From NCBI GenBank assembly GCA_902812435.1, contig CADDZA010000001.1, forward strand, positions 1-64,000: DNA of 64,000 bases. Reading direction: 5' to 3'. This document shows positions 3,540 through 28,838 of the stretch, in pieces (positions within the stretch are counted from its first letter, which is position 1; every line of letters starts with the position of its first letter). The notes beneath the pieces are model-generated. The model had not been told where the DNA came from. It did not search any database and saw only the letters and a list, made by a program, of their open reading frames with translations. A program made the position numbers and the translations under genes. This DNA comes from Clostridia bacterium (GTDB lineage Bacteria > Bacillota > DSM-12270 > Thermacetogeniales > Thermacetogeniaceae).

Positions 3540-3628
3540 CCTGTTTTTGATATTGCGCTTCGCAGACGGCGGCCGACCGGCTCCTATGACGCCGTCACGT
3601 CTGGATCGGTTCGGCCGGCCCTCCTGGG

Positions 3629-4890: not shown

Positions 4891-5321
4891 GTGATATACA
4901 ATTAAAACATGACCTTGCCAGAGCAAAGATGGAAAAAGCGCGGGAAGCATGGGAGGAAGCACTGTGGTGTTTCAAGGGCGAAAAGTATCCGGCAACCGTA
5001 AATAGACTTTACTATTCCATGTACCGGGCATGCTTGGCGGTACTTACTTTTGAAAGTAAAATACCAGTTAAACATACGGCCGTAATTGGCTGCGTCAATA
5101 AAAAGTATGTGAAAGAAGGACTATTGCCCAAAGAACATGGAAGGTTTTTACATAGGCTCCAAACTGCAAGGGTAGAAGGCGATTACAAGGGAAAAGAATT
5201 TACCAGGTAAGAGGTAGAAGAATTAATTGCGTATGGAGAAACAGCGTTAACAGTAATGGAAAATCTTGTTGAGAAAATAATCTTTCAAAAGAAATTGAAA
5301 GGGTCATCCGAACTGGAGTAA
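4887..5321 (+). pseudogene. HEPN protein of the UPF0332 family, interrupted by an in-frame stop
   Basis: From ATG 4887 the frame encodes a UPF0332/HEPN protein: a first long helix, then NRLYYSMYRACLAVL (the conserved RLYY-x-M helix), KHTAVIGCVNKKYVKEGLLP and RLQTARVEGDYKGKEFT. A TAA at 5208-5210 stops it at 107 residues, but the same frame continues with EVEELIAYGETALTVMENLV to a second TAA at 5319-5321, which is the expected last helix of the family. So a single sense codon has become a stop. The shortened protein might still fold, but the last helix of the HEPN bundle is missing. It is the toxin partner of the MNT gene. Confidence 0.75.
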
Positions 5322-5351: not shown

Positions 5352-5653
5352 TTAACTTCCGTACCTTGCTAAATAAGACCTCAACACCGCCTTAAACAGT
5401 GGGCCATGATTGAGTATCTTTATGAGTATCTTTAAATGAAACAACTCGTTAACTATAACTTCACCCCGAAAAGCTGCCGTTTTTTTAGTAATTCCGGCTC
5501 AAAGGTCAATCTCCCTTTGCTGGAACAGTTGGCCCATTTGTTTTTCATCGTCCGCAACTGAACCTGTTTTGGCTCTATTTCAATCCGCTTAGCCCAGGCG
5601 GCCACTTCTGTTCCAACTTCATCCAGGAAGATAAGAGATGCCTTCAGACCCAA
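5352..5653 (-). pseudogene. YgjP-type zinc metallopeptidase, frameshifted and active-site mutated
   Basis: The last gene of the BREX operon. The frame ending at 5453 contains VQLRTMKNKWANCSSKGRL and the following strand, the R-x-M-x-x-x-W-x-x-C-S motif of YgjP/DUF45 peptidases. The frame then stops; in the next frame the reading continues VIVNELFHLKI, then NHGPLFKAVLRSYL, to TAA near 5352. That is the peptidase helix, normally V-I-x-H-E-L-x-H; here the first metal-binding His is Asn. The N-terminal part is also short, with only a TTG and no ribosome-binding site. It is therefore a dead gene. YgjP-like peptidases occur at the ends of some BREX loci. Confidence 0.7.
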
Positions 5654-5656
5654 CCA

Positions 5657-6379
5657 TTACCGGTGTGCGATTGTGACCATGTCTAAATCCAAACCCTGAC
5701 GCTGTATTTCAAACCGTTTTGATTGTCTTATATCCGCCATCGAAATATCCAGGTGAAACGGAAAAGCTGTGGGCAGCTGGGGTAATTGTTGCAGGATCAC
5801 CGCTTGGGTGGCTTCCGAACACAGCAGGGCTTCTAAAAACCATAACTGAACACTGGCGCTGGCCGGACCTTTTTTGGCGGCGGGGATATAAACGCCTTTT
5901 ACGGCCGTATCCTGGAGAACGCCCCAGTCTACCATCGAACGTACCACTCGTTGGCTCGCCCGGCGAGCAGTTGACCTTTCCCCCCAGCGTTCCGCCAGCC
6001 GGCGGTAAATCTGCTCTAGGGAAACTTCGTTCTGCAGCGCCGACAGACGGCCAATAATATCCGCTATATCCCGAAAAAAAGGATAGGCCACAAGCGTCAT
6101 GCCCCAGTGCAACCAGAGTCTTGTATCGGGGCCATCCTCGGTTAGAATTCCTAAAGCCCGCTCCTGTAATGACCGGTGCTTCTGCGGTACCCTGACCCAA
6201 ATCCGGGTTAGTACGGTTATGGTCTTCCTGCGTGCCTCTCTACTTCGGCATTCTGACTGCAAGAAATCATCAAGGTATTTTCGTACCTCAGCAATGTCTG
6301 TTTCCGTTGCGGCTTTCCAGGCGGCGGCATCCAGCCATTCCAGCTTAACTCTCCGGTCAAAACCGATATTTAATGCCAT
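5657..6379 (-). CDS. brxA: BREX type 3 protein BrxA (DUF1819)
   Basis: A 240-residue protein read from ATG 6379, which is preceded by GGGAGGAG; an in-frame TTG two codons earlier is the alternative. The sequence pattern matches BrxA: a helical N-terminus with LEWLDAAAWKAA, the stretch SREARRKTITVLTRIWVRVP, WLHWGMTLVAYPFFRDI in the centre and RASQRVVRSMVDWGVL in the second winged-helix-like part. BrxA is a small helical DNA-binding protein of BREX systems. It begins 2 bp after the pglZ stop. Its position at the end of brxF-brxC-pglXI-brxHII-pglZ-brxA is the standard order for BREX type 3. Confidence 0.85.
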   Translation of the reverse strand: MALNIGFDRRVKLEWLDAAAWKAATETDIAEVRKYLDDFLQSECRSREARRKTITVLTRIWVRVPQKHRSLQERALGILTEDGPDTRLWLHWGMTLVAYPFFRDIADIIGRLSALQNEVSLEQIYRRLAERWGERSTARRASQRVVRSMVDWGVLQDTAVKGVYIPAAKKGPASASVQLWFLEALLCSEATQAVILQQLPQLPTAFPFHLDISMADIRQSKRFEIQRQGLDLDMVTIAHR

Positions 6380-6381
6380 GA

Positions 6382-8337
6382 TCAATGCTCCTCCCAAATC
6401 CTGACAAAAGGAACGACAACTTCTTCCAAAGATATTCCGCCGTGGCTTACGATTTCTTCACCCTCTGAGACAAAGGCCGACCGGCCCCTGGCCAGCAGCA
6501 CGGAGTAACCCTCGGGTAAACCAAAACCAGGCCAGCAGATAACATTGTCTATTTCTTCTATCATCTGCTGTCGAAAAACGTCGCAATGATAAATTCTGGC
6601 CCGCTCACCGCGGGTTTCAGCCAGGACTCCGTCCGGCAAACGGCCCCTTCCTCTGGCTGCGATATTGCCGTGATCCGAAGTCAGATAAACGGCAAACTTG
6701 TTCTTCAGGAGATAATCAATCAGCTGCACCAGGTAACCCTGTTCAGCCCACAACCTGACTTGTTGGTGCATACCGGCTGTCCCCAGCTCCATGCCGTGCA
6801 TGATTCTGTCCACTTTATCTATAACCAGACCCACGATCTCGAACTGTGATCCTAAAAATTCATCAATTTCACTTACCAACTCGTCATCTAAACCTTTATT
6901 GTAGTAGATATTTTCCCTCCTGACCCTGCTGTCTTCCCAGAATTTATGCCAGTGCTGTCCTTCTTTCAAGGTTGTCGTCAGAGTGTCCTTGAAATACAGG
7001 GGCGGCTCTGCAGCGAACAGCGCCTGCCGTGAGATAGAAGTTAACGTCGGTACCCAGGCAAAGACCTGGTTTTCCTCGAGTCGCCACGCCGGGCACCTGT
7101 CTCTCAGGAAATTGCGGATAACCAGCCATTGATCCAACGCCAGGCCGTCAATGACGATCAGGGCGATCTTTTTTGCTCCCTCTTTGAGGCGCAGATGGGC
7201 GAGATAGCGGGGGATGTGGTGCACCATCACCGGTCTGGAAGTATAGGGGAGGTTGGCCAGGGAGCCGTAGCGCACGAGCATCCAGCTCGCAAAGCGCTCT
7301 TCCAATTGATCGTGCAATTCCTCAATTTGCGGTTTGCTTTTAGTTTTTATGTCCTGATTCAGTTCACCGCTAAGCACAATCAATTCCGCCCACAGAACGG
7401 CCAGGCGCTGCCAATCCCTGTGGGACGCTGTTTCTCCAGTCAAATCTTGTTGTATCTTCTCCAGCAGCCACTTGATCCTGCGCCTTTCCTCAGCCTGCTT
7501 ATCGAAGAGTACACCTGCCAGGACCCAGGCGGGCATACCTTCCGTACTCGCAACCGGAACAGGCCTTAAACTGCCTTCCAAGAACAGGTTGTCGATGTAC
7601 ACCCGTATGTCATAATGGTCAAAGGGGACCTCGGTGAAATTCTCTCCTCTGGCCGTGCTTTCCAGGAAGCGACGCCATTTTTCTTGCAGGAAAGCAAAAA
7701 AGGCTTCCCTGCTGGGGATGATGTCTTCCAGCGGCCAGTTCTTAAAAACGCTCTTTTCTCTTAAACAATGGATAAGGTATTCGTCTAAAACCCTTGGCAC
7801 TGTCACAAAGCTGCAATGCCGCGAAAGCAGCATCTTCATCAGTTCAACCGGTGAATTGATCAGGTCGGGTATTATGCCAAAAACGCGTTTTAAGATATAA
7901 TCCTTGGTCGCCCTCTCTCCCAGCGCAGGACCATTGTAATCCTGGTACGCCCTGTAAAGCTTATCCAGATCCGACTTCTCCACAGCCGCAACTACCGGAT
8001 AGCTGAGTTTGGGAAAGATACCGGCCAGGCTGAAGAAAAGCTTATGACCCCTCTGCCATACATCGAAGGGGAGGCGGCGCAGTTCCTGCGGGCCGCCCTG
8101 TACCACCACTACCAAATGTGCCGCTTCGCCCCGATCCCACCTGGAGCGATACTTTGCTTCATACGCATAACGAAAGGTGATAGGATCACTAAAAACAAGG
8201 ATATCAAACCCCATTTCCCCTAAGGTCGAGAGAACATCTTCTTCCAAGAGCAAGCCGTCGGGGTCAGCCGCTAAAGTAAGCCTTGATACGCCTGGCTGTA
8301 AGTTCTGAAGGATGCGGTGGCGCCAGTTCATGGTCAT
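6382..8337 (-). CDS. pglZ: BREX phosphatase-superfamily protein PglZ
   Basis: A 651-residue protein. The alkaline-phosphatase-like core is visible in the second half: KKIALIVIDGLALDQWLVI (first metal-binding Asp in the I-D-G-L-A-x-D-Q-W form typical of PglZ), a central EFLGSQFEIVGLVIDKVD region, and VYLTSDHGNIAARG (the D-H-G metal site). The N-terminal half is helical, as in other PglZ proteins. PglZ is the one component found in all BREX systems; its enzymatic role in defence is not settled. It overlaps brxHII by 4 bp and is followed 2 bp later by brxA. The length is close to normal and the frame is intact. Confidence 0.95.
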   Translation of the reverse strand: MTMNWRHRILQNLQPGVSRLTLAADPDGLLLEEDVLSTLGEMGFDILVFSDPITFRYAYEAKYRSRWDRGEAAHLVVVVQGGPQELRRLPFDVWQRGHKLFFSLAGIFPKLSYPVVAAVEKSDLDKLYRAYQDYNGPALGERATKDYILKRVFGIIPDLINSPVELMKMLLSRHCSFVTVPRVLDEYLIHCLREKSVFKNWPLEDIIPSREAFFAFLQEKWRRFLESTARGENFTEVPFDHYDIRVYIDNLFLEGSLRPVPVASTEGMPAWVLAGVLFDKQAEERRRIKWLLEKIQQDLTGETASHRDWQRLAVLWAELIVLSGELNQDIKTKSKPQIEELHDQLEERFASWMLVRYGSLANLPYTSRPVMVHHIPRYLAHLRLKEGAKKIALIVIDGLALDQWLVIRNFLRDRCPAWRLEENQVFAWVPTLTSISRQALFAAEPPLYFKDTLTTTLKEGQHWHKFWEDSRVRRENIYYNKGLDDELVSEIDEFLGSQFEIVGLVIDKVDRIMHGMELGTAGMHQQVRLWAEQGYLVQLIDYLLKNKFAVYLTSDHGNIAARGRGRLPDGVLAETRGERARIYHCDVFRQQMIEEIDNVICWPGFGLPEGYSVLLARGRSAFVSEGEEIVSHGGISLEEVVVPFVRIWEEH

Positions 8338-11174
8338 GCACCTTCTATGTACATAATGATAATTGCGCTAAGTTCCGGCAAGATTTTTTCCTTCTGCTGC
8401 AAACGCAGGGCCCATTCTTTCTCTTCGCGTTCCAGTTCGGCCAGGCGGTGCTGGCGCACGGCGGTGAGACCTATCCTCGTAATGGCCTGCCGGCGAATTT
8501 GGAACGCATATTGGCCTTTTTCCCGCTCTTTCTGCAGGTGCTCTTCATACTGGTTCTTGAGTTCCAGGAAAAGATTATGCCCGTATCGTACAGCCTGTTT
8601 CTGGAGCTTCTCAAAGATTTCCTCGGATTTTTCGCCTGTAATATAGCCCTGGATTTCGAGGGAGGTTTCTTCCTGTAATAACAAATCCCATATCCTGCGG
8701 GCGGTGGGCATGAGTATTTTACCGTCTTTTTCCTGCTCGAACAAGGGTAGAACCCGAACCTCACGCATGTTTTCCGCCATAAGAGATATCCGCCATAAAG
8801 ACCAGTAGCCGCTTATCTCCTGCGGTAGTCCTTTGAGCCTGACCTTCGCAACGGACTGACCCGCCACGGCCAGGGGCAGGCGGGAGACCAGCCCGCGAAC
8901 TCTCGGTTCTTCCAGGCTGAGATAAGACATTGAGTGCTTATCAGCTTCCTGCCGGGAGAAAGCCACGTCTTTCATAGTGAAGCCATCGGGCCAGGTCAAA
9001 TCATAACCTTCCAATTTGGGCTTCACTACGCCGCCTTCGCTTACCAAAAAGTTAACGGTCATGCGCTCTACCCAGTACGGCAGCGGATGGCCGGAAATCT
9101 TCTCCACCAGCCGGGAATCGAGCTGTTCCTCTTCTCCCAAAAGCCGGTTGGCCATAGTTACTTCCTGGATGCGCTGCCTAAGTTCAGCCTCCAGCCGCTC
9201 AATACGGGACTCAACTTCTTCCGGCCTGAGGATAGCCTCTTTATACAAATCCTCGAAATCAGACGCTATCTCGGCCGAGTCGAGAACATCGCTCATCTTG
9301 TCAACGCCGAAATCCGCCAGGATTGCGGCCAGTTTTTCCTGGAGGACTTCCTGCACCCGGTATTCAATAGTGTCCTGCAGGACGAAGTTGAGTGCCCAGA
9401 CAACGTGTTCCTGGCCGATGCGGTCCACCCGGCCGATGCGCTGCTCCAGGCGCATGGGGTTCCACGGCAGGTCGTAGTTGATGACCACGTGGCAAAACTG
9501 CAGATTCAAACCCTCGCCGCCGGCATCGGTGGATACAAGCACCCTGGCGGGACCGGCAAATTCCTGCTGGACTTTTCGCCTTTCTTCCAGCCCCATGGAC
9601 CCGTTTAGACAAACGACACTAAAACCCCTGTTTTCCAGAAACTCCTTGAGCATCTCCTGGGTCGGAATGAACTCTGTAAAGATGAGAAACTTGAGCTCGG
9701 GGTCGTTCTCTTCGGCCTGCAGCCGGTACATCCACTCCAGCAAGGCCTCGGCCCGCGCGTCGGGCTGGGACTCGCACTGACGTGCCAGGGATAAAAGACG
9801 CTTGACCTCTTCCCGTTCACTGGCAAAGGCGACTAAACGGTACTTCAGAATTTGCTCGAGCTGCTCCTGCCCGTCAAGGTCCCACCAGTCTTCTTCCAGC
9901 TCTATTTCACCGTTAATTTGAAATGGAGCTTCCTGTTCAATCACTTCCAGTCTCCGTTCCAAGGCGGTCCGGATTGCCCTGGTGCTGCTGGCTACCAGGC
10001 GCTGCATGAGAACCATCAAAAAGCCGATGTAGTTTCGCTTTTCTTTCAGCGCCCGGTTGTATCCTTCCCGCACATATTCCGTCACCGCCTCGTATAGTTC
10101 CCGCTGCATCTGATGCCGGGACTGCCATACCACGGGCACCAGCTGGGTTCGGCGCGGTTTGAATAACGGCTGACCTTTCTCATCAATGGCCCGGCGTTTT
10201 TCGGTGCGGATTACGTACGGGGCCACTCTCTCCCGCTTTATGGACTCGACGCCAGGAAAAGCCTCCTTATCAAGGAGGGCCATAAGCCGGTGGAAGGAAT
10301 CAGTTTTTCCCTGGTGGGGTGTCGCCGTGAGAAGGAGAAGATATGGTGCAGCTTCAGCCAGCCCCTGACCGAGGCGGTATCTGGCCACGGTATCCGTGCT
10401 GCCGGCAATTCGGTGGGCTTCATCGACAATAATCAAATCCCAACCCGCAGCAAGAAGGTTTTCGAAGCGTTCCCGGTTATAGCGGCTTACCTGCTCTCTG
10501 CTCCATCCCCGGCGCGATTCCAAAGGCTTTATGGCATCCATAGGAACGACTACCTGGTCAAACCGCTGCCAGACGTTGGCATCCCATTCAAAGTACGACA
10601 GAGCTGTGATCTCGGCGGGCATCAGCAGGTGAAAGCGTTCCCGAAAGCGGTTTTCCATTTCCTGCACCCACTGCATCACCAGGCCCTTCGGTGCCACCAC
10701 CAGCGTGCGTCTGACGAGCCCCCTGAGCTTCAGCTCGCGCATGATTAAACCGGTTTCTATTGTTTTGCCGAGGCCGACCTCGTCAGCCAGAAGATACCGG
10801 ACCCTGCTCTTGGAAACAGCCCGGGAAAGGGCGTAGAGCTGGTGGGGCAAAGGAGTAACGCTGCCTTCGAGAGGCGCCAGCAGGACATCCGGCCGGGCCA
10901 GGCTTTCAGCGATTCGGGCCGCAGCGACGGTGTAAATCAGCCTCTCCCGGCTGGATATGTCTGCCTGTGTTATCGAGGATAACTCGTTTTCCTGAAGGCG
11001 GATAACCGAATCCCGGCCCGGCACCCAGACGCGGTAGACGTTCTTTCCCCACAGGTCCAGGGCTTCAATAACCTTCACCGGTTCACGGTACTCCCGGCTC
11101 CAGGCCCAGTCACCGGGCCGCCATCTACCATCCCGCCTCAAAACCGACACCTCACCGGCCAATAAATCATTCAT
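8334..11174 (-). CDS. brxHII: BREX type 3 SNF2-family helicase BrxHII
   Basis: A 946-residue SF2/SNF2 helicase. Motifs in order: LPHQLYALSRAV (Q-like), LLADEVGLGKTIETGLI (Walker A), TLVVAPKGLVMQWVQE, LIIVDEAHRI (DEAH box), LLLLTATPHQGK, then the second RecA domain with LIFTEFIPTQEML, VLVSTDAGGEGLNLQF and NPMRLEQRIGRVDRIGQ (motif VI). A helical C-terminal part of about 300 residues follows. In BREX type 3 this helicase replaces the Lon-like or other accessory genes of other types. It starts at ATG 11174 within the end of pglXI (8-bp overlap), so translation is coupled. Intact. Confidence 0.95.
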   Translation of the reverse strand: MNDLLAGEVSVLRRDGRWRPGDWAWSREYREPVKVIEALDLWGKNVYRVWVPGRDSVIRLQENELSSITQADISSRERLIYTVAAARIAESLARPDVLLAPLEGSVTPLPHQLYALSRAVSKSRVRYLLADEVGLGKTIETGLIMRELKLRGLVRRTLVVAPKGLVMQWVQEMENRFRERFHLLMPAEITALSYFEWDANVWQRFDQVVVPMDAIKPLESRRGWSREQVSRYNRERFENLLAAGWDLIIVDEAHRIAGSTDTVARYRLGQGLAEAAPYLLLLTATPHQGKTDSFHRLMALLDKEAFPGVESIKRERVAPYVIRTEKRRAIDEKGQPLFKPRRTQLVPVVWQSRHQMQRELYEAVTEYVREGYNRALKEKRNYIGFLMVLMQRLVASSTRAIRTALERRLEVIEQEAPFQINGEIELEEDWWDLDGQEQLEQILKYRLVAFASEREEVKRLLSLARQCESQPDARAEALLEWMYRLQAEENDPELKFLIFTEFIPTQEMLKEFLENRGFSVVCLNGSMGLEERRKVQQEFAGPARVLVSTDAGGEGLNLQFCHVVINYDLPWNPMRLEQRIGRVDRIGQEHVVWALNFVLQDTIEYRVQEVLQEKLAAILADFGVDKMSDVLDSAEIASDFEDLYKEAILRPEEVESRIERLEAELRQRIQEVTMANRLLGEEEQLDSRLVEKISGHPLPYWVERMTVNFLVSEGGVVKPKLEGYDLTWPDGFTMKDVAFSRQEADKHSMSYLSLEEPRVRGLVSRLPLAVAGQSVAKVRLKGLPQEISGYWSLWRISLMAENMREVRVLPLFEQEKDGKILMPTARRIWDLLLQEETSLEIQGYITGEKSEEIFEKLQKQAVRYGHNLFLELKNQYEEHLQKEREKGQYAFQIRRQAITRIGLTAVRQHRLAELEREEKEWALRLQQKEKILPELSAIIIMYIEGA

Positions 11175-13851
11175 CCAGCCGCATCAGGGCGTTGTCATAG
11201 TACATCAGGAGCGTGGTATCTTCCTGGAGGACGGTATCCGGTATGCGCCTGGCCACCTCCACGATGGTTTTATAATCCTTGGCAGCCCAGCAGGCCTTGA
11301 ATCCTGCCCTGAGCGCCTCGGTGCGGAACATTTTGAGTCTGCCTCTACCTTCCTTATATTCCTCGAACTCTTTGAGGAGGGCCTTCTCGCGCATCTTCTC
11401 CAAGTCAGACTGCCTGCCGGGGTCGGGGACGTACCAGCGGCCCTGATCGTCTTTAAGGAAGTTCTGCTCTAAAAGCTCTGCCAGCTCCGGCAGCTTTTCG
11501 TGCGGCGCTTTGTGCAGTTCTCGCAGGAATTTGGGGTAGATCTCCTGGTAGGTCTGCGGATTCTTTGAGAGTTCACTGCGCAGCCACTGGATGGAAGACT
11601 TTTCATCGGTCACAAACAGGGATAATTGCTCAATTTCCTGGACCGTAAAGCGCTTTTTATCATACTCCACCACCTGGTCGGGGAGGAAGTACATGCCATC
11701 TCTCTCCGGGAAGCGCTGTTTTAAGCCGGCGTAAAACTCCGCCGCTCCCATAGGCACGGCAACTCCTCGCTGGACGTGGAAGGCTACCATCCGGTCATAG
11801 AGAAGGTAATTTTGCCGCTCCGCAATTATCTCCGCTTTGCCGTTTTTCTCCACAAAGACCGGCAGCTGTCTTAAGTGGGTGCGGACAAAATCCCAGACCC
11901 CTTCTTCGGTCCCCGCCTCGAGGTGAAAGCGCTTTTCCAGGCCGCCGTTGGGCTTGTAGGCGGAGATTATTAAGTCCTGCTTTACTGCGGTCGTGTAACC
12001 AATTTTTGCCTGGTTAAAGGTTCCCTGCTTTTTATCGAGAGTCCGAACATCGGCAATAACAAAGCCCGCCCGCATAATGGCCTCCTGGATGGCGTTCCAG
12101 ATCCGGTTCTGCGAGTTGTGAAACGCCACCGTCATCCACCGGCCGGGCTTTAAGACCCGGTAGTACTCGGCAAAGCACTTTTCCATAAGCTCCTGGTATT
12201 CCCGCGGGCCTTTGCCCTGGGCTTTGTTTTCAACGGCTTCGGGCTTATTATTGGTAAAAACCCTGAGCCAGGCTTCCCAGAGGAAGTTGAGTTCGGAATA
12301 CATGAGGTTGCCGCCGAAGGGTGGGTCGGTGAAGATGTAGTCTATTGATTTATCTTCTATTGAAATATTAGCGCTAGAACCACATGAAACTATGTTATTA
12401 TTTGGATAAAATTGAACTATTCTTACCCTTATAATGCTCATAGACTTTCCATTAAGCCATTGATAAACATTCCATTCACGACATAGCGAACCAATATATA
12501 ACGTCCCAGATAATATCATATTGGGAAATGTAGTTTTAGGCCTAAACCTTTGTAATTTAGTTAAACCAAGAAGTCCGCCGGTCATGATGGTGAAGAGAAG
12601 TAACTTTTCTGGTATTCTTAAAGGCGAACCCATTACTTTCGAATAAAAAGCCGCCAGCACCCACAAATTCCGCCTGGTGTAAAAATGGTGAACATGGGTA
12701 ATCCCAAAATGGTACCCCGCCCGCCACGTGTCACCCCATTGCTCTCCTCTAAACATCATCGCATCAGTAGGATACCAGTACGGTATCTTGCTCTCTTCAA
12801 TCTTCCGGATCAGCTCGAGGTCGTACTCATCGGGCACTTTCTCAAACCTTTGTTTCCCCACAGAATAGTTGATCAGCACCGGCACCTGGCGGGCGCGGGT
12901 GATAAACTCCCCGATGTCCCGGTCGTACACCCTTTCCGTGGCCCTCTCCAGGGTCCGCTTAGTGAGATCTGCCCCGCAGTGGGGGCAGGGAAACTCGTCC
13001 CGGACTCTACCTTCTTCTTTATCTACAGCCACCTCCCAGAAGATAAGCTCTCCGGAACAACTGGAGCAGATAAACACATCGGACCAGACGGTGTAGTTGA
13101 TTTTCCCCATAACAGGATTGCCCTTCGCGTCTTTCTGCACCCTCCCATCCACCACATGCTGCGTTTCGTACATCCAGCCGCATTCTTTTTCCAATTCGTC
13201 CAAAATCCGCCGGGCTTCCCGCTCGAAGGCCCGGACATCTACCGGCGTGTTGTAGTTGTAGGCAATGAAGGTGGCGGCAGGGGAGAGGTCGATTAAGATA
13301 GCCTTGCGTGTTCCAAGCTTAGAAAAAGGCCGGCCTTTTTCATCGAGGATGGTCCCGTCATCCAGTACGCGGTAGCCTAAGGATTCTACGGCCTTGCGGT
13401 CCCCGCATAAACTCGCCGCCACGCCGGTCATGCCCGTGCCGCAGAAACCGTCAAAGACGATGTCTCCCGGCTCGGTGTAGTGGAGGATATAGCGCATGAT
13501 CGCCCTGTGCGGCACCTTGGTGTGGTAGGAATGGGCGTTGTAAATGGGATCGTTCTTGCCCTCCGAGACATCCGCCGCAAACGGCTGCCTGCGGTAATCG
13601 TCGTTATCCGGATCGTAGGGTTTTCCGTGCTCTTTAATAAAATCCCCTATGAACGGGTTCGGGCAGGCCGTGTAATAGGGCGGGTCGGAAAGGTTGATGA
13701 TGTCCTCATCTTTGGCAATGGGAAATCCCTCGATCTGCCTCACCCGGTCCAGGTGTTCTTTGGTAAGTTTGAACCGTTTGGTTTCTTGTGTATTTCTTTC
13801 CTCTCGTATTGCTTCTAGAGCATCCAAATAAACCTGGTATTCCTTAGCCAT
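11167..13851 (-). CDS. pglXI: BREX type 3 adenine-specific DNA methyltransferase PglXI (DUF1156-like)
   Basis: An 894-residue N6-adenine methyltransferase. The N-terminus carries an NLSDPPYYTACPNPF element; motif I is GDIVFDGFCGTGMTGVA; two CxxC pairs in CSSCSGEL and FPCPHCGADL form a zinc ribbon near residues 270-310; motif IV is DYIFTDPPFGGNLMYSEL. In BREX it marks host DNA, so that the system can tell self from phage. Start ATG 13851 with a GTAGGAGTGG site. The region 12340-12600, coding for the residues before motif IV, is clearly richer in A+T than the rest of the gene, which suggests a replaced segment. The preceding cas gene ends 67 bp upstream, one of the seams of the CRISPR insertion. 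Confidence 0.93.
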   Translation of the reverse strand: MAKEYQVYLDALEAIREERNTQETKRFKLTKEHLDRVRQIEGFPIAKDEDIINLSDPPYYTACPNPFIGDFIKEHGKPYDPDNDDYRRQPFAADVSEGKNDPIYNAHSYHTKVPHRAIMRYILHYTEPGDIVFDGFCGTGMTGVAASLCGDRKAVESLGYRVLDDGTILDEKGRPFSKLGTRKAILIDLSPAATFIAYNYNTPVDVRAFEREARRILDELEKECGWMYETQHVVDGRVQKDAKGNPVMGKINYTVWSDVFICSSCSGELIFWEVAVDKEEGRVRDEFPCPHCGADLTKRTLERATERVYDRDIGEFITRARQVPVLINYSVGKQRFEKVPDEYDLELIRKIEESKIPYWYPTDAMMFRGEQWGDTWRAGYHFGITHVHHFYTRRNLWVLAAFYSKVMGSPLRIPEKLLLFTIMTGGLLGLTKLQRFRPKTTFPNMILSGTLYIGSLCREWNVYQWLNGKSMSIIRVRIVQFYPNNNIVSCGSSANISIEDKSIDYIFTDPPFGGNLMYSELNFLWEAWLRVFTNNKPEAVENKAQGKGPREYQELMEKCFAEYYRVLKPGRWMTVAFHNSQNRIWNAIQEAIMRAGFVIADVRTLDKKQGTFNQAKIGYTTAVKQDLIISAYKPNGGLEKRFHLEAGTEEGVWDFVRTHLRQLPVFVEKNGKAEIIAERQNYLLYDRMVAFHVQRGVAVPMGAAEFYAGLKQRFPERDGMYFLPDQVVEYDKKRFTVQEIEQLSLFVTDEKSSIQWLRSELSKNPQTYQEIYPKFLRELHKAPHEKLPELAELLEQNFLKDDQGRWYVPDPGRQSDLEKMREKALLKEFEEYKEGRGRLKMFRTEALRAGFKACWAAKDYKTIVEVARRIPDTVLQEDTTLLMYYDNALMRLDE

Positions 13852-13918
13852 AAGTCGCCACTCCTACCGCAATATTTATTAAAACTAGCCCCAGGCGTCT
13901 ACTATACAAGGATTGACA

Positions 13919-16165: not shown

Positions 16166-16742
16166 AGTCGGCCTCCTTCCACTCGCTAAAGCCCTTGTAC
16201 CACACAAACTCCACCCGGCCAGCGCGGCTGAACACCTGGTAACGAAGTTGGATTCGTTTCCCCGTGGCCGGGTAGTTTAGTTTGGCCGCCGCCACCCGGT
16301 TTTCAGTCCAGCCATTTCCGTTCCGCTCCCCCCAGAGCAGTGCCGTTTCGTTGTATTGGTGAAACGTCACTTCTGGATGGTCTTCCCAATAGTCTTGGGT
16401 ACCGTAATCGCCTGCCAAAGATTTAATGCCCGCAGGGCCGATGAAGCGCCAGTCAAAGGCCGTGCCGCTCCGGCGCAGCATCAGGTCGCCGCCCTCCCCG
16501 AAGATTCGCCCGCGCTCCAGCAAGGCAATATTTTGCGGCAGCGTGCCTTTTTCAAAGACAACCTCACTGACGTATTCCCACACCCGAAAGGGCATCGCTG
16601 CCAGATCCCACTGTTCAAGGAACTTCAGTAAGTCGCTCTCGGCGCACTGCCCGCCCAGGATGGTCAGATTGGACGGGCCGCACCGGGTCCGGCACACCTC
16701 ATCAACCATTTTTTTGAAATCTACCTGCAGCCAGAGGCTCAT
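16146..16742 (-). CDS. csx19: Type III-D CRISPR protein Csx19 (TIGR03984)
   Basis: A 198-residue protein. It contains LMLRRSGTAFDWRFIGP, then ETALLWGERNGNGWTENRVAAAKLNYP and a closing RVEFVWYKGF strand; the L-L-W-G-E ... W-x-E-x-R-x-A ... Y-P series is the TIGR03984 / Csx19 signature. Csx19 occurs only in type III-D loci and is a small structural subunit of the III-Dv complex. It overlaps the double-Cas7 gene by 4 bp and the next gene by 20 bp, so all three are translated as one unit. Length is in the usual range. Confidence 0.85.
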   Translation of the reverse strand: MSLWLQVDFKKMVDEVCRTRCGPSNLTILGGQCAESDLLKFLEQWDLAAMPFRVWEYVSEVVFEKGTLPQNIALLERGRIFGEGGDLMLRRSGTAFDWRFIGPAGIKSLAGDYGTQDYWEDHPEVTFHQYNETALLWGERNGNGWTENRVAAAKLNYPATGKRIQLRYQVFSRAGRVEFVWYKGFSEWKEADYGERND

Positions 16743-20760: not shown

Positions 20761-20762
20761 AT

Positions 20763-22391
20763 TTATCCCTCCTCGTATTCCCGGTGCGATTTGTCCAGCC
20801 TCAAAGCAAAGTCCCAGGCGTCCAGGAGATCGGGGAGGCCATGCCCGTACCAGATCTCTCGGTAACGGAACACTTGGCGCCAATAACCCTTCTCGTTGTC
20901 ACCCAGCAACTCTAGGGCCGCCCTCACCGCTGCATCCTGGCCTTGAGGTTCCCTCAGCTTAAGGCGCTTTAACAAGTACTCTAGTTTCTTTTGCCAGCGG
21001 TTCAGTTCATCGGAGTCTAACTCTTGTGGCAGGCATGAAGTATCGTAAAGGTCTTTCAGCTCAGAGAGTCGCTTTTGGGGACAAGCACGTAAATTCCAAC
21101 GCTGGTCAATCAACTGCTTAACCGGCAGGCCCCAGTCATCTCTCTCATCAATTATCCAATAGGGACGCAGGGTAGACCTTACCTTACTTTCTTGGGAATT
21201 GGATACCAGGCGCCCACCCCGTACGACCTCAAAGTCGAGCACCGAATAGGGTTGTCCAATACGCTGTTTACTGAGCCGCTTTGCCCCTTTCAGTCTTGTC
21301 TCACCGGCTGCGTGTGCCTGGGCGTAGGGGTGCTTGCTTTTACAAATCACCACTGCCGCGGAGACGGTAGGTCGGGGTACCTTATCGTTAAGATCCTTAT
21401 CCCTTAGAAGTTTAATCATTTCATCTTCGTAAGCCTGACAGAAACACCGGGCAAAATCCAAGGCCCATGGAGCGGGGATGAGGGCAAACAGGTCATCACC
21501 GCCCAAGATTAGGGGCAGCACGGGAATAAAAGTTGGGCGGTCGTCTAACTGGTTATTTTTCATTATCATTTTAGTCGGTACGGCCAAGGCCCGGCGGATT
21601 GCTCGGGCCAACCCCTTTGATAATGCGCGCATCTGCTCAGGACTCTGGCACTTGCTGAACACCTCGCCCATAGAGTTGCCATCGGCCAGCAGGTAAGCCA
21701 CGTAGCGCCGCGGGTCGTAATCAGCTATATCCTCCAATGGGTCCCCTTCTAATCTCTCCCGGTGTTTTTTCCTGCCGGGCCAATCAGCCTGAATGAGATC
21801 TGCTTCCCCCACCACTTCTTGGTAAAAATCTTTCAGAAACTCACCCGGCGTCTTTCTATTTTCTCTCTCAGCACTTTTATTCAGGCATGAAGTACAAACA
21901 TATTGGGGTTTTTCTCCCTCATGATAAACTTGATGTGCCACAGCCAGTCCCACACCGCACGAAGAACAGAGCGCCATATACGGCATATGCTCCTGGCTCT
22001 GCCAGCCTTCGCTCCTGTGTTTTGCCTGCCGCAAATTTTTTTCGGCCTGTTCACTGGCTTTAGAAAAATGTTGTTCAATTGGCTCTTTTACCTCCACCGG
22101 CTCGGCTACCGTCAACGACCCCCCCGTGGCACGTCGATAAACCTCTGCCAGGAGCGCCCCAAAGTCCCGGGCCTGGTCGAAATCGTCAAAGAGGATACGG
22201 AAACTGCCGCCATCGTGAATGATTATGTCTCTGTCTGGATTACCTCCATAGCGTGGCAACAAATACCCGGGGGCCTCTTTACAAAAACGGGAGAGTAACT
22301 GGCTGCCACCCACCACTTCGCGCAAACGGGAGGAGCGGAAGATAAGATCTTGAATTTTGTCAGCCTCGGCCGCTAAAAGATAACGAGTCAC
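20763..22391 (-). CDS. cas10: Cas10 with intact GGDD palm and no HD domain
   Basis: A 542-residue Cas10. The first palm domain starts almost at the N-terminus (RYLLAAEADKIQDLIFRS; HDGGSF at 59-64). A zinc finger uses C142, C145, C166 and C169. The second palm has YLLADGNSMG near 233-242 and PLILGGDDLFALIP, with GGDD at 297-300, the site that makes cyclic oligoadenylate from ATP when target RNA is bound. There is no N-terminal HD nuclease domain, so DNA cutting by Cas10 is not expected and signalling is the likely output. It overlaps the CARF-HEPN gene by 4 bp. C-terminal helical domain present. Confidence 0.93.
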   Translation of the reverse strand: MTRYLLAAEADKIQDLIFRSSRLREVVGGSQLLSRFCKEAPGYLLPRYGGNPDRDIIIHDGGSFRILFDDFDQARDFGALLAEVYRRATGGSLTVAEPVEVKEPIEQHFSKASEQAEKNLRQAKHRSEGWQSQEHMPYMALCSSCGVGLAVAHQVYHEGEKPQYVCTSCLNKSAERENRKTPGEFLKDFYQEVVGEADLIQADWPGRKKHRERLEGDPLEDIADYDPRRYVAYLLADGNSMGEVFSKCQSPEQMRALSKGLARAIRRALAVPTKMIMKNNQLDDRPTFIPVLPLILGGDDLFALIPAPWALDFARCFCQAYEDEMIKLLRDKDLNDKVPRPTVSAAVVICKSKHPYAQAHAAGETRLKGAKRLSKQRIGQPYSVLDFEVVRGGRLVSNSQESKVRSTLRPYWIIDERDDWGLPVKQLIDQRWNLRACPQKRLSELKDLYDTSCLPQELDSDELNRWQKKLEYLLKRLKLREPQGQDAAVRAALELLGDNEKGYWRQVFRYREIWYGHGLPDLLDAWDFALRLDKSHREYEEG

Positions 22392-23977
22392 GGATGCACC
22401 TCCTTCTTTAAATTAGGGGGTAAAAAGCGACTCATGCCGCACAATTCGCAGAGCTCAAACCAGGACAAAGCCGTAGCCCGCCATGGTAATTTATCCACTG
22501 GTTGCCTTACAAAATCTTCGAAGTTTGCTTCAACAAATTTCAGCGCTTCCTCAGCCCATTCTTGTGGAACCGAAAAATACTTGTGCGCCAATTCGTTGCG
22601 TATATCGAGAAAACGCTTCCAGCCATCATTGGCTCTGAACATACTCGTCTCCTGCCACCAGGCCGTCATCGGAGAAGGCCTTGGTACGATAATTTCAGGG
22701 TCAGTCTTTTTCCTAAATCCCTCAAAAGTAATATCCTTCTTATACCCGATACCTATCTGTGTTTTATTAGGATCTGATAAAGCCTCAAAGACATTCCATG
22801 CATTAGGCGTGTTCTTATCCAGCGCATCCAGAAGTAAATCCCGCTCGGCTGGGTTAGTCACCAATTGAACCACCCGTGCTAACATGACAATTTCGTTGAC
22901 CCCGCCGGCCCGGAGGAACGCCGAGCGGTAGTCCTGGTTGTATTTAATTAACCGCCTGATACGTTTCAATTCATCGTAAACATATACCTGCAGCATATTA
23001 TGATTACCGTAAAAGCGCCTGGGAATGTTGGCATAGGCACTACCGCTGATTTCATACCATTGATCCCCCAGTTCAACCACCGCACTGGGCTGCTCAAAAG
23101 CCCCCAGTGCTTGCGCTGCCTGTCTTGCGCCCCGAAAGTCGCCACGATCCCATTTTTCGTAGTACTCCAGGAATGCCCCAAGTTTTTGTATTGGCTCTTC
23201 GGTTCCCAGAATTACAGTTTTCATCGTATCCAGAATAGCACCTAACAGCAATTCACGCGCCTCGCGGAACTGATAACGCTCGTATAACGTGCGCACGCGC
23301 TCCCATTCGCGCAGGGCAAACTCCTGATAAGGGTTGGATAGCTTACCGATCTTACAACTGAAGCCATAGGGGCGGCGATATTTTGGATCATAAACTTCAA
23401 AATCTACATAAGAGATCCGTGCTCCGGAGTAAGCTGCATACATGTACGCGCCGGTGACCATGCTCTTTTTCCCGCCGGTTACATCAATTACCACGTCTGT
23501 TTCATCGTGGAGAACCTCCACCAGTGTTTGAAAGACGTCAGCCGGGTTGTCTCGAGTCGGGTAACCCGCTTTATCAGGCATCTGTTCGCCGAGGAAAAGC
23601 GGTTCCTTCTGAATCAGCTCTTTTTTCTTTAAGTGCCCGACCGCCACGATGATGTGCCTAGCGAAAGTGTCCCATTCTCCTTCGCGCCCATAGCCTTCCT
23701 TATTCAGCATCAAGACAATTTTTCGAGGCTGATACACGCATACAGATTGCAGCAATGGTTCCGAGGAGTGACCGACCAGGAGTACCAGCGTTTCGCAGGT
23801 GTTATCCTCAATGCGCCCCTTCTGGCGGGCGTATTCCAGTTCGGCTTCCAGCAGGCTTCTATTGCCCAGTCTTCTTTGCTCACAGCAGATGTAGAACTCC
23901 AAACGGGAATCGAGATCGGAGTTTCGAAACCAATAATCTTTAGTTACACGTTCGAGGTCCTCCTTGCTAAAATCCAA
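22388..23977 (-). CDS. CARF-HEPN ribonuclease (Csm6/Csx1-like, TIGR02710-related)
   Basis: First gene of the CRISPR cassette, 529 residues, start TTG 23977 behind GGGGGAGGTG. Residues about 62-195 are a CARF domain: LVLLVGHSSEPLLQSV, IVLMLNKEGYG, then VVIDVTGGKKSM near 162-173 and ISYVDFEVYD. This is the pocket that binds cyclic oligoadenylate. The middle is helical. The C-terminus carries RNELAH, an R-x4-H pair at R460 and H465, the HEPN RNase motif. The expected activity is cutting of RNA when Cas10 signals a target. It comes 98 bp after brxC, with a TTGACA in the gap but no fitting -10, so it is probably transcribed with the BREX genes. Confidence 0.85.
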   Translation of the reverse strand: MDFSKEDLERVTKDYWFRNSDLDSRLEFYICCEQRRLGNRSLLEAELEYARQKGRIEDNTCETLVLLVGHSSEPLLQSVCVYQPRKIVLMLNKEGYGREGEWDTFARHIIVAVGHLKKKELIQKEPLFLGEQMPDKAGYPTRDNPADVFQTLVEVLHDETDVVIDVTGGKKSMVTGAYMYAAYSGARISYVDFEVYDPKYRRPYGFSCKIGKLSNPYQEFALREWERVRTLYERYQFREARELLLGAILDTMKTVILGTEEPIQKLGAFLEYYEKWDRGDFRGARQAAQALGAFEQPSAVVELGDQWYEISGSAYANIPRRFYGNHNMLQVYVYDELKRIRRLIKYNQDYRSAFLRAGGVNEIVMLARVVQLVTNPAERDLLLDALDKNTPNAWNVFEALSDPNKTQIGIGYKKDITFEGFRKKTDPEIIVPRPSPMTAWWQETSMFRANDGWKRFLDIRNELAHKYFSVPQEWAEEALKFVEANFEDFVRQPVDKLPWRATALSWFELCELCGMSRFLPPNLKKEVHP

Positions 23978-24075
23978 CTAAGGCACCTCCCCCCATATTT
24001 TTGTAGGCTGGTAATATGGGAACGCGCGTATCTCGCGGCTGGTTGTCAACTCTCCTTGCGTTTTCGTCTATTCCT

Positions 24076-27000
24076 CTATTCCAGAACAATCCTTACTTTC
24101 TGTGGATCCCTGCCGCGCGTGAGAGACCGGATATAATCCTCAAAGCGCTGCTGAAACTCAGATACTGTGCAGGGCGTGCCACCTTGAGCCAAAGCTTTCC
24201 TTAAGTCGGCTGCGGTGACCGAAACCTTTTCCATGCCGGAGAGCACTTCCTGAACGGCCTTTACAAACGATGCGTCCACCGTATACGGCAGCTGCTGTTC
24301 TTTGATCACCTGCTCCAGCGCTTTCTGCTGCTCCGGCTTCAAAAGATAGATGTTTTCCTTCACCGTCGGGTCTTCCAGGTTGGCGATCAGTGTCTTTTCC
24401 CAGTCCTGGTACAGCCTTTCCAGATCCTCCTCCAGCTGCCTGAGGGCCGCCTCAGCCGAAAGCTTAATCTGCTCCTGTGCCGGACGATAGCTGCAGTGGG
24501 GGCAGATGGGCGTTTTTTCCAGATCATCTCCGGTGAGGCTGAAGCACGTTTTCAGCTCCGCCAGACGGTTTTGGAAGTCCGCAAGCTGGGCGCGGGGCAT
24601 CAACTCGATACCGGCCAGCCTGCTGAGTTTCCCCAACCGCTCATCTTTGAGAAGCCCGGATTTCTTCTGGTCCAAAGACGCATTTAACCTGGCTTTGGTA
24701 TGGGCCTCAAGGTAGGCCTCAATGTAAGAACTCTTGAGCTCTAAGAGCACCTGCACGAGCTCCCGGCGAAGGTCAGTGACGGATACTTCATCCAGGCCGG
24801 ATAGTTTTCCTTTGAGCTCTTCACGCCGCTCCCGGGCTTTTGTCGTCCAACCGGCATCCGCCGGAAGCACGGCTTCGGCGGTGCTGAGATAGGAGGCCAG
24901 CGGCATAATCTCCTTTGCCAGGCCAGCCAGTTCTTCAACCCTCTTCAGGGTGGCAAGGTACGCCTTCTGCGTGTTAATCTCCCGCTCGGAGTAGCGGAAG
25001 TTTTTCAACTTCCCGGGAGTGTTAAAAATCTGGAGTGACTCCAGAAACCCTTTGAAACTGGCCAGTTCATCCCTTAAACCGGTTTTCTTTTTCTCATCGA
25101 ATAAAGAAATACCCCACAAGGATAACTCTTGCTGGATCGCCTGCTGGGCTTGCACGGTGCGTTCCAGAAGTTTATCCACTGCTTCCTGAAGCTGCCTTAC
25201 CCCTTCTTCACGAGTAGATTGATTGACGATCAGCCCGGGCGGCAGCCCCAAAAATTCAAACAGCGCCTGCAGAGGCCCGAGAGGTAAATCCTTGGGACGC
25301 TCGATGTGCTTAAACTTAATAAGTTCCTCCAGGGGAATTTTGCCCAGCTCCTCCAGGTTGGAAGCATCTATCTTCTTCCCTGGAATGCTTAAAGTAACAT
25401 CACCGCTGTAGATCAAGCTCGCCAGGATGACGACCACCCACTCCGGCTCCAATCTGAAATGGGTTTCGTACTCCACACCGCGAAAATCTGCAATTATTTC
25501 GCCCCGGTTGAGTACCTGGCCGAGACCCTTCCGGTCCAGCTGTCCCAGGATGTGTTTGGCATAACGGGAATTTTGCGGCCTTAACTTATCTCCGTCCAGA
25601 AGTTCCAGGGCATCGAGGACGGCAGCCCCCTGCCTGGTCCTGATGCTGCCGAGGATCCACTTTATCGCCTCCTGGGCAGCCTGAGGCCGGTTCTTTACGG
25701 TAACCAGGATGGAGAAGGCCGGGTATTCGGGCGCCAGCTCCTGGAAGTAGGGCGCCAGGCAAAGGGAACCCACCAAGTTCACCAGATCCCGAACCGACGC
25801 ATGAGGAGTGGCACTGCTCTTGATCCACTCTACGAATTTTTTGGTTGCTCCCCGGTAGGTAACTTCATAAGCCGTGGTGATGTTGTTACGCAGCCATTCA
25901 ACTATCTTTTTTAGCTGATCGTTAGCCTTATTTTCATAAACCTGCCGCGTTCCTTTCGAAGCCGTGCTGGCCATCTCGCTGGCGCCGGCGAAGAACTTCA
26001 GGGCACGGTCAAAATCCTCGTCACGCTGCACCAGCCGGAAAAACACCTCATCGGGCTTTTTCTCATCCTCAAAGGGCGGCGGGTCGAAGGGCTGCAGAAA
26101 GTAGAGGTAAAAGTCCCTGGGCGGATGGGCGGTAGAACGCTCGTTGGGGGCCCCGAAGAATAAATACCCTAACCGGGTAGCCTTTTTCTCGCGCCACTCA
26201 AGTTCGTGCTCCCAAATCTGGAAATTGGGAACATACGTGGCTTCGGGGCACTCCATGGCTCGGGCGAGGGCCTTAAATAATAGCGGTCCAACTGGTTTGG
26301 GGTTAATGTCTCAGCTTTCTGTTCAATTAGAGAATCAAAGTCGATGTCTTTTTTCAGGTCAAGGTAGTACTGGCCGTTATCCTGATTGAAAGAAATAAAT
26401 TGGCCGCTCACCGTCCTTAAGATTTCACGCAACACGGTTTCGATAGTGGTTTTAAGAAACTCGGCATCCTCTTCCGGCAAGGGCAGGTAAAGGCAGAGGT
26501 CGTCGCGGAGTTCTTCGGCCGTGACCCCTATTGGAGCGTAAATATCTCCTGTTGTCAGCCGGTGAACGCTCAAAGCGTGAATGATGCGGAGGGCCACAGG
26601 TTTATACTGCGGTCGAGTAAAAGCCTGCTGGACACGGCTTTCCAGCACCTGGCTCTTCTCAATCACTTCTCGAATGTCCGGATCACTGCGAAAAGAAGGA
26701 TTGTCCTTTAAGTTTTGCCAGTAAGAGTCATAAGCGATGAGGCCGGGTTCCTGTTCCGGAACTTCTTTGTCCAGGAGCTTTTTCATGGCCGCACTAATGG
26801 TTTTCAGCACCTCGCGCTTTTCGGCTACATAGACCCGCTCAAAAGTTTCAAGGTATGCCGGATGCACGGGGAAAAGAGCGACGAATTCGTCCATGCGCTC
26901 GGCCAGGGTACCGTATAGTTTGGTGAAACGCTGCAGGTGCTCCCTTATGAGAGCCTTCTGCCTGTCATCCTTGCGCAGCAGGCGCTGGGCAACTACGTAG

Positions 27001-27755
27001 GCTATGTCTTCACGGACAATTCGTATCTGCTCAAAACGGTCTTTGACCCGGCGCAGGGTTTCAGCCACAAACTGAAAACGCGGGCTGTCGAAAATGGCTT
27101 CCTGCACACCGGCCATGAAGCGAAACCGGGTGAGCCGGCAAACCTCCCCGATTTCTCGCAAAAAGTTTAGGTCAAGGATTAGCTCCTGGTCCTTCCGCGT
27201 ACGTAGGTAGTCCAGGAGTTCATCGACAACCAGCAAGAGCCCGTGATCCGGGTAAACTTCCTGGAAAGCGTTCATCATCTCAATAAAAGGGTCTTTGTTG
27301 TTGGTAACTTTATCGGCTTCAGGAAAACGGTATTTCACCCCAAGGTCAGCCAGTTGTTCTTCCAGCTCGGCGCAAATGATGTTCCTGAGGGACATCGTGG
27401 TGGAACCGATCTCGGTCCTGATAACCTTGAACTTGCCAGCGATAACCTCCGCTTTTTTAGCCACGGCAGGATGCCGTATCTCCGTGGCTAGGTCTGGATA
27501 TTCGGCTATAGCAGATAGTACCGACATTTAAATGCGATTTGCCGGTACCATAGTTACCAACGATCAAAAGCCCCTTATTATCTTGGGGATGGTCGTACTG
27601 GACTGTGAAAAGACAACTTCAGTAATCTGCTCGGCCATCCGTTCCGAGATAACATAGCTTTTAACCAGCTCACCGGCCCTGCCTTTGGCATCAGCTTCCC
27701 GTAACTGCACTATAGTTTCGACCGGGTCAAAATGTATCAGGTCAGCGTATTTCAC
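24076..27755 (-). pseudogene. brxC: BREX type 3 ATPase BrxC (DUF6079), with three apparent frameshifts
   Basis: A gene of about 1,225 codons in three pieces. Start GTG 27755 (AGGTGGGG upstream). Piece 1 ends with a TGA at 27564-27566. The Walker A segment [11 protein letters not shown] then [12 protein letters not shown] is read only in another frame between about 27530 and 27605. Piece 2 (27527-26169) resumes the first frame with [13 protein letters not shown] and includes [15 protein letters not shown] (Walker B). Piece 3 (from about 26276) has [21 protein letters not shown], a CPHCSYRP zinc pair and a long helical C-terminus. The shifts are a lost base at A4 27608-27611, an extra base at 27527-27532 and a lost base at AAA 26275-26277. 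All sit in homopolymers. Either a real knock-out or sequencing error; neighbours show none. Confidence 0.85.
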
Positions 27756-27785
27756 CGTATTTCCCCACCTTTTCCTGAAATCTCT

Positions 27786-28244
27786 TTACCCCAGAGGACA
27801 AATAAGGGCATCGACTTCATAATATTTTCTGTACTCCGGGTGATCCGGCTCGGCATAGATCAGCGCACCACCCTCGAATTTGCCGTTCCATGCGGCAACG
27901 ATAGTTCGATTGCGGCTGACTTGTTGAAGTAAACGTAAAGGGTCCTGTTGAAGAACAAGATCAAAAAGTATTTCTGTGTTATCCAGAAGGACCGTATCCT
28001 TTCCCGTTTCGCCTATGATCGTCTCCGCTATTCTCGGCAGGCGTAACGCTCGTATTTTAGCGGGATATTCCAGGAGTTTCTGGCTCAGCATGAGGTTCAG
28101 ATTAATATAGGGATAACCCTCATCTTTGGCTATTTGAACAAGAATTTTGGTTTTTCCGGTTGCAGCTGACCCAACCAGTAAAACCAGTCGATAATACCTC
28201 GACCGGGCTGCTACTATTTGTTTTTTGAGTTCATCTGTTTTCAT
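27786..28244 (-). CDS. brxF: BREX type 3 P-loop protein BrxF
   Basis: A 152-residue ATPase-like protein. Walker A is LVLLVGSAATGKTKIL at about residues 22-37; a second motif is DTVLLDNTEILFD (Walker B-like) near 94-106; RTIVAAWNGKFEGGALIYAEPDHPEY closes the domain and is typical of BrxF. BrxF is found only in BREX type 3, so this gene fixes the subtype. It is 30 bp ahead of brxC. The ribosome-binding site is modest. The frame is intact. Confidence 0.9.
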   Translation of the reverse strand: MKTDELKKQIVAARSRYYRLVLLVGSAATGKTKILVQIAKDEGYPYINLNLMLSQKLLEYPAKIRALRLPRIAETIIGETGKDTVLLDNTEILFDLVLQQDPLRLLQQVSRNRTIVAAWNGKFEGGALIYAEPDHPEYRKYYEVDALICPLG

Positions 28245-28293
28245 GGCAATCCCAGCACCTGCCTATATATCCCCTGGATAACCACTAAAAGCA

Positions 28294-28497
28294 TCAGGTT
28301 TCAGTAGCTTCCCCAAACCCATCCTTCTTGCTCGCAGGGATAATTATCGCCTTCTCCAGGACGACCTTCCCATCGTCTTCGATTCTGAGAAGAACCCGGT
28401 CGCCCTCTTCTATTTGAAGAGCAGTCCGTATTTCTTTTGGCAACGTCATTTGACCTTTCGGTCCCATTTTGGCTGTAAAAATTTTCTTTTGGGCCAA
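28294..28497 (-). CDS. AbrB/SpoVT-type transcription regulator, probable operon regulator
   Basis: Reading from TTG 28497, with AGGTGG five to six bases upstream, gives 67 residues. The swapped-hairpin AbrB domain is clear: FTAKMGPKGQMTLPKEIRTA, then LQIEEGDRVLLRIEDDGKVVL. A longer frame upstream lacks a start signal. AbrB-like proteins bind DNA as dimers and often govern their own operon. It lies 49 bp before brxF in the same direction, so control of the island operon is the simplest role; it could also be a MazE-type antitoxin without partner. Confidence 0.8.
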   Translation of the reverse strand: MAQKKIFTAKMGPKGQMTLPKEIRTALQIEEGDRVLLRIEDDGKVVLEKAIIIPASKKDGFGEATET

Positions 28498-28617
28498 GAA
28501 AACCACCTGCCAGGAAGTATGGAAAACTGGATACGGAGACCTATTCGGCAAGAAAACATGAAAATCCTGCCAATTGAAAAGAAAACCCTGCTGCAAACTC
28601 CATTGGCGTAAAAATTT

Positions 28618-28651
28618 AACAGCCGGTTTTCGCAGCAAACCCGGCTGTTTT
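28618..28651 (-). terminator. Hairpin between the small ORF and abrB-type gene
   Basis: Arms AACAGCCGG and CCGGCTGTT around a 14-base loop. On the minus strand it is followed by TTAAATTTTTAC and on the plus strand by TTTTC. Placed between two co-directional minus-strand genes, it probably ends the transcript of the small upstream gene, so the BREX operon promoter should lie between here and 28500. Confidence 0.6.
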
Positions 28652-28688
28652 CATCCTAACCTATGTAAAAAAAATCAGATTCGGCCCT

Positions 28689-28838
28689 TTAAAATTCCGG
28701 CAGCGATACTCCAGCGTTCGCTATAATGCCGCCGTCCCTGTCAAGATAAGTTTTGCCTACCAGATGCCTATTATTGGGCAAGGGTTTTCCGGTTTTAACA
28801 TCCATTTCCACCCAATTTGTGAACTTGCGGTCAGCCAT
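28689..28838 (-). CDS. Small protein of unknown function, 49 residues
   Basis: Start ATG 28838 with GGAGG seven bases upstream. The protein is polar: ADRKFTNWVEMDVKTGKP at the start, then a repeat-like KTYLDRDGGIIANAG. No membrane helix or known motif. It overlaps the stop of a short upstream frame as TGATG, so it may be the second gene of a tiny operon. The hairpin at 28618 lies behind it. Function unknown. Confidence 0.6.
   Translation of the reverse strand: MADRKFTNWVEMDVKTGKPLPNNRHLVGKTYLDRDGGIIANAGVSLPEF

Follow-up and report, generated by a model that had tools for sequence, protein, structure and literature searches.

A type III-D variant CRISPR effector cassette between brxC and pglXI of a BREX type 3 operon

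We describe a 64,000-nt stretch of DNA from a Clostridia bacterium (the window, to which all coordinates refer) in which a bacteriophage exclusion (BREX) operon of type 3 holds, between its genes brxC and pglXI, a CRISPR effector cassette of the type III-D variant (III-Dv) headed by a gene for a CARF-HEPN ribonuclease. The genome that holds the window, G000, is an assembly of 141 contigs that is 85% complete. That innate DNA-based immunity and adaptive RNA-sensing immunity act in layers is usually deduced from the loose clustering of systems in defence islands. We consider it likely that the III-Dv cassette with its CARF-HEPN gene was inserted into a cargo slot at the brxC/pglXI junction of a mobile BREX-3 operon, that the two are carried together and most likely co-transcribed, and that the cassette serves as an RNA-sensing second layer of defence.

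Results

The operon and its cassette

All 12 genes named in a first-pass annotation of the window were verified by profile search or close homology, six as BREX-3 core genes and six as the III-Dv cassette (Table 1). The order of transcription, entirely on the minus strand, is a MazE/AbrB-like gene, brxF, brxC, CARF-HEPN, cas10, cas7-5-11, cas7-2x, csx19, cas7-insertion, pglXI, brxHII, pglZ and brxA, and the six BREX genes follow the standard order of type 3. The annotation had given the same identities, strand and order, and its seams of 98 bp and 67 bp were borne out, as were the small overlaps and 2-bp gaps inside the modules once the likely ATG starts of Table 1 are used. Corrections were needed elsewhere: brxF and brxC are 29 bp apart and not 30, the genes span 5657–28244 and not 5352–28838, and brxC, taken to be intact, is in frame pieces. 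Neither a promoter nor a terminator was called on the coding strand of either seam. From the common strand, the short seams and the lack of predicted signals in them, the BREX and type III genes probably form one transcription unit.

The order cas10, cas7-5-11, cas7-2x, csx19, cas7-insertion is that of subtype III-Dv (III-D2), which supports the earlier assignment of a type III-D variant within a BREX-3 operon. The III-Dv catalytic aspartates D26, D33 and D246 align with D68 of the cas7-5-11 ORF and with D42 and D299 of the cas7-2x ORF, and the GGDD cyclase motif of Cas10 aligns with that of the Synechocystis III-Dv Cas10. A domain search found no HD domain in Cas10, as expected for type III-D. 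Both the CARF domain and the HEPN RX4-6H motif are kept in the CARF-HEPN protein. Between G000 and a second carrier, G006, the ratio of nonsynonymous to synonymous substitution rates (dN/dS) is 0.21–0.39 over the six cassette genes, with no stops. The cassette is intact and under purifying selection, and judging by its sequence it looks functional.

The closest described system is the III-Dv complex of Synechocystis PCC 6803, which has been shown to make cyclic oligoadenylate and to activate Csx1 (PMC11026444). The two share the five effector genes and their order, the single-copy fusion subunits, the catalytic Asp residues, the Cas10 GGDD and CARF RNase genes upstream. In Synechocystis cas6, the adaptation genes and the array adjoin, whereas the G000 cassette has no local ones and lies inside BREX-3. 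The Cas7-insertion protein of G000 opens with a cold-shock domain; the N-terminal 112 residues of its Synechocystis counterpart were described as uncharacterised (PMC11026444).

An array search of the window found none, and the cassette itself is without cas6 or adaptation genes. Contig C57 of the same genome carries cas6, cas1, cas4, type I-B genes, III-B genes and an array. Because of this cas6 and array, a supply of CRISPR RNAs (crRNAs) in trans is possible. A search of the G000 genome for the mCpol family gave no match.

The block in related genomes

The whole block, with homologous seams, recurs in G006, which belongs to a different genus of the same family. Amino acid identity between the two copies is 84–97%, but falls to 76% over the N-terminal part of pglXI, which is divergent. 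The same BREX-3 operon, about 93% identical in nucleotides, is found in members of other families (G273, G117 and locus L059) with brxC abutting pglXI, that is, with an empty site. Conversely, genome G371 has the same III-Dv cassette without BREX, adjoining type I-B genes and an array; its nucleotide similarity to the window covers 13920–23857, from the stop codon of cas7-insertion to about 120 bp inside the start of CARF-HEPN. Each half can thus do without the other, since the BREX operon is found with no type III module and the cassette with no BREX. The arrangement is not due to chance, because the entire block is present in a second genus and because similarity to the BREX-free cassette ends so sharply.

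A fragmented source assembly could in principle join two unrelated loci. The same junctions and homologous seams in G006 refute such a chimaera, and analogous insertions of type III-C operons in other genomes, one of them in a BREX type 1 operon of a single-contig genome, also speak against it; we regard it as practically excluded.

The block has moved between genera. Synonymous divergence (dS) between G000 and G006 is 1.42 for glmS and 0.07–0.32 for brxF, brxC, brxHII, pglZ, brxA and the cassette. As the dS of the block is far below that of glmS, the block, cassette included, was shared horizontally. In G273 the GlmS protein is only 61% identical to that of G000, while brxC is 93% identical in nucleotides. 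A scan of IMG/VR with cas7-2x found no relative. In a plasmid search, cas7-2x retrieved only distant cyanobacterial III-Dv sequences, and Cas10c only three distant matches.

Frame breaks in brxC

Alignment with five close relatives, all open at the three positions, showed three single-base length differences in the brxC of G000 (Table 1). The gene is open throughout in G273, G117, G011 and L059; G006 has one break, elsewhere than those of G000, and its pglXI is also broken once. Thus, as assembled, both III-Dv carriers have frame-broken BREX genes next to an intact cassette. One explanation is that BREX is dead in these strains and serves as a relic scaffold, type III alone defending the cell and using only the promoter and mobility of the operon. 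This agrees with the breaks, with the open brxC in relatives whose junction is empty or filled by type III-C, and with the unbroken long housekeeping genes of the window. Yet the brxC codons, read in the relatives' frame, have a dN/dS of 0.11–0.14 and are free of in-frame stops, just as in comparisons of intact copies, the other BREX genes of G000 are all open, and in G187 and G011 type III genes lie within an apparently intact BREX. We therefore regard a dead BREX as an unlikely explanation. Because the codons evolve like those of intact copies, the breaks either arose by decay very recently or reflect a local fault of the assembly. If they are real, type III is the only working half in the G000 strain.

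A cargo slot around pglXI

To place the brxC/pglXI junction in context, we surveyed inserts of more than 2 kb in 105 distinct BREX-3 loci, counting for each junction the measurable cases. Such inserts were present at brxC/pglXI in 16 of 89 cases and between pglXI and brxHII or pglZ in 27 of 94, as against 0/51 between brxHII and pglZ, 0/56 between pglZ and brxA and 1/74 between brxF and brxC. Large inserts are thus concentrated at the two junctions flanking the methyltransferase gene, with hardly any at the others. The brxC/pglXI junction itself is a general cargo slot: among loci L027, L028, L029 and L059 it is empty in all but L028, which has III-C cargo. The other cargo of the slots comprises Gabija, PsyrT, IetS, Mrr, HerA, NsnB-like, AbiU-like and AriA-like systems and a second PglXI. 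The latter gene fills the pglXI/brxHII slot of one locus (L133:14851-17706).

Four type III modules lie in 272 kb of non-core DNA within the operons, and two more abut brxA. Apart from these two, 586 kb of BREX-3 flanking DNA contained no type III genes, and when the BREX-3 loci were scanned again with profiles for overlooked ones, none came to light. Of the 24 strong Cas10c loci in the phylum sample, 4 have a BREX-3 pglZ within 20 kb, compared with 0.12 expected from random placement (Poisson 8e-6), a null that leaves out the general clustering of defence genes.

Type III-C operons in other BREX loci

The III-C cargo of L028 belongs to G011, a genome from the genus of G006. It is a complete operon (Cmr1, Cmr6, Cas10c, Cmr4, Cmr5, Cmr3) at the brxC/pglXI junction, and an Mrr-like restriction endonuclease occupies the junction after pglXI. 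Part of the brxC 3′ end occurs a second time before pglXI (L028:8357-8545), flanking the insert, which hints at how cargo enters the slot. Elsewhere, III-C operons separate pglXI from brxHII or pglZ (L036 in G296, L037 in G187, and L076) or directly follow brxA (L069 in G249, and L107). G296 has a pglXI split across two reading frames and a fragmented brxHII. In a BREX type 1 operon of the single-contig genome G166, pglX and pglZ are separated by a III-C operon. The recurrence suggested by the first-pass annotation is therefore supported, by the same block in a second genus and by III-C modules in further BREX operons. We also observed a III-C operon with 59–85% amino acid identity to that of G011 beside DrmD-like helicase and type III restriction-modification genes and not BREX (L183, contig C83 of G128).

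In a Cas10c tree of 22 rows built by a quick method, the five BREX-3-linked rows need at least five label changes, all forced by well-supported branches. A single ancestral embedding of type III-C in BREX was rejected on this tree; related type III sets entered BREX operons several separate times.

These III-C Cas10 proteins show no GGDD at a cyclase position, whereas the III-Dv Cas10 has the motif; the same place is thus filled by subtypes that signal differently. This bears on the idea that BREX and type III depend on one another, for instance because one complex senses on behalf of the other. Such an integrated hybrid would fit the repeated independent embedding, the tight seams, the overlapping genes on one strand and the joint transfer between genera. 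However, each half occurs alone, the place accepts III-Dv with a cyclase and III-C without, and the slots also take unrelated systems; mutual dependence is, in our judgement, very improbable. As neither half needs the other to exist, we favour co-expressed cargo over interdependence.

Neighbouring features

The MazE/AbrB-like gene at the operon head is also found ahead of brxF in G006, G273 and G117. The target-recognition region of pglXI (about aa 402–502) is unlike that of relatives in the alignment, and the nucleotide match is interrupted at 12346–12645. A pair of MNT nucleotidyltransferase and HEPN genes of toxin-antitoxin type (4540–5210) closely follows brxA on the other strand. Direct repeats at 1421–1837 and 3612–4026, 2.2 kb apart and 77–93% identical, span two short P-loop NTPase-like ORFs that flank an HD-domain gene. 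An Rfam scan matched only glmS, far downstream of the block.

Table 1. Genes and seams of the BREX-3 operon and its III-Dv cassette, in window coordinates.
Feature	Position	Strand	Evidence and remarks
brxA	5657..6397	-	likely ATG 6379; PADLOC BrxA 339.6 bits
pglZ, BREX-3 type	6382..8337	-	NF033449 882.7 bits (cut-off 250)
brxHII, Snf2 helicase	8334..11174	-	PADLOC BrxHI/BrxHII 1526.7 bits; Walker A GLGKT
pglXI, DNA methyltransferase	11167..13851	-	PADLOC PglXI 1414 bits
Seam cas7-insertion/pglXI, 67 bp	13852..13918		no promoter or terminator predicted on - strand
cas7-insertion, N-terminal cold-shock domain	13919..16207	-	likely ATG 16165; TIGR03986 403.5 bits; PF00313 1.8e-12
csx19	16146..16742	-	PADLOC Csx19 3.6e-79; TIGR03984 26.8 bits, under its NCBIfam cut-off of 35
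cas7-2x (double Cas7)	16739..18514	-	likely ATG 18472; PADLOC Cas7_IIId 658.6 bits; aligned to Synechocystis III-Dv 8s9t_D
cas7-5-11 (cas7-cas5-cas11 fusion)	18469..20883	-	likely ATG 20760; PADLOC Cas5_IIId/Cas7_IIId; aligned to 8s9t_A
cas10	20763..22391	-	PADLOC Cas10 200.6 bits; PF22335; GGDD at 297-300
CARF-HEPN ribonuclease (Csx1/Csm6-like)	22388..23977	-	TTG start; PADLOC CARF1--CARF_HEPN 619.8 bits; RNELAH at 460
Seam brxC/CARF-HEPN, 98 bp	23978..24075		homologous seam in G006; no promoter or terminator predicted on - strand
brxC, ATPase gene in frame pieces	24076..27756	-	breaks near 27603, 27529, 26274
brxF	27786..28244	-	96.7% identical to G006; conserved small ATPase gene ahead of brxC in BREX-3 loci
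MazE/AbrB-like small gene, operon head	28294..28638	-	PF04014 7.6e-13; candidate BREX-3 regulator

Discussion

The BREX half of the locus matches type 3 in its six core genes, their standard order and a PglZ far over the BREX-3 cut-off, but differs from described operons in being interrupted by a whole CRISPR effector operon and in its broken brxC (PMC12839542). A 2026 survey reported a recurring pattern of BREX operons with PARIS/OLD, restriction endonuclease, HNH, HEPN and Schlafen genes embedded between the core genes (PMC12839542). That cargo resembles ours in consisting of extra defence genes between core genes, but takes the form of nuclease modules of one or a few genes, and the main text of the survey has no Cas10 or whole type III module inside BREX. 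The CoCoNuT superoperons similarly join an RNA-targeting system with CARF regulation to DNA restriction systems, namely BREX and restriction-modification, and a staged defence was proposed for them (PMC11090510); unlike the III-Dv cassette, they are helicase/McrB-based and have no crRNA-guided complex. BREX is unmentioned in the 2025 CRISPR classification, and the openly available main texts searched describe no type III module within BREX. Thus, defence cargo embedded in BREX is known, and whole type III effector operons as such cargo appear to be new.

If the two halves act in layers, BREX would act earlier, against unmethylated incoming DNA, and type III would therefore form an RNA-sensing second layer against phages that evade BREX. 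The III-Dv complex would be loaded with crRNAs from the type I-B/III-B locus on C57, with its cas6 and array. It would cut spacer-matched phage transcripts at the three Cas7 sites, and these transcripts would switch on Cas10; the cyclic oligoadenylate that it makes would activate the CARF-HEPN RNase and stall the cell.

Several points weigh against this picture. The BREX layer in G000 may be disabled by the brxC breaks, and the other III-Dv carrier, G006, has breaks in both brxC and pglXI. III-Dv inside BREX was found in only these two related genomes. We infer the shared transcript, the use of crRNAs in trans and the layered action, whereas anatomy, conserved catalytic residues, purifying selection, recurrence and joint transfer are shown. 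The first-pass annotation had proposed a joined, co-transcribed two-layer unit. Co-transcription is in line with the seams, where no promoter or terminator is predicted, and the block has moved between genera jointly; each half also occurs alone, and a working two-layer unit in G000 is not supported because its brxC is frame-broken.

More tentatively, BREX operons may have a dedicated slot by the methyltransferase gene that selection has repeatedly filled with whole III-C or III-Dv modules. They would then make up a distinct class of hybrid defence operons, in which an innate defence by DNA modification shares its transcription unit with an RNA-sensing arm programmed by guide RNA.

Taken together, whole type III operons lie inside BREX operons, their genes overlapping or nearly touching, after several separate acquisitions. 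Uptake of cargo by BREX-3 is located at the two junctions flanking the methyltransferase gene. As nearly the same BREX-3 operon exists in matched empty, III-Dv and III-C versions, the joint action of linked defences becomes directly testable.

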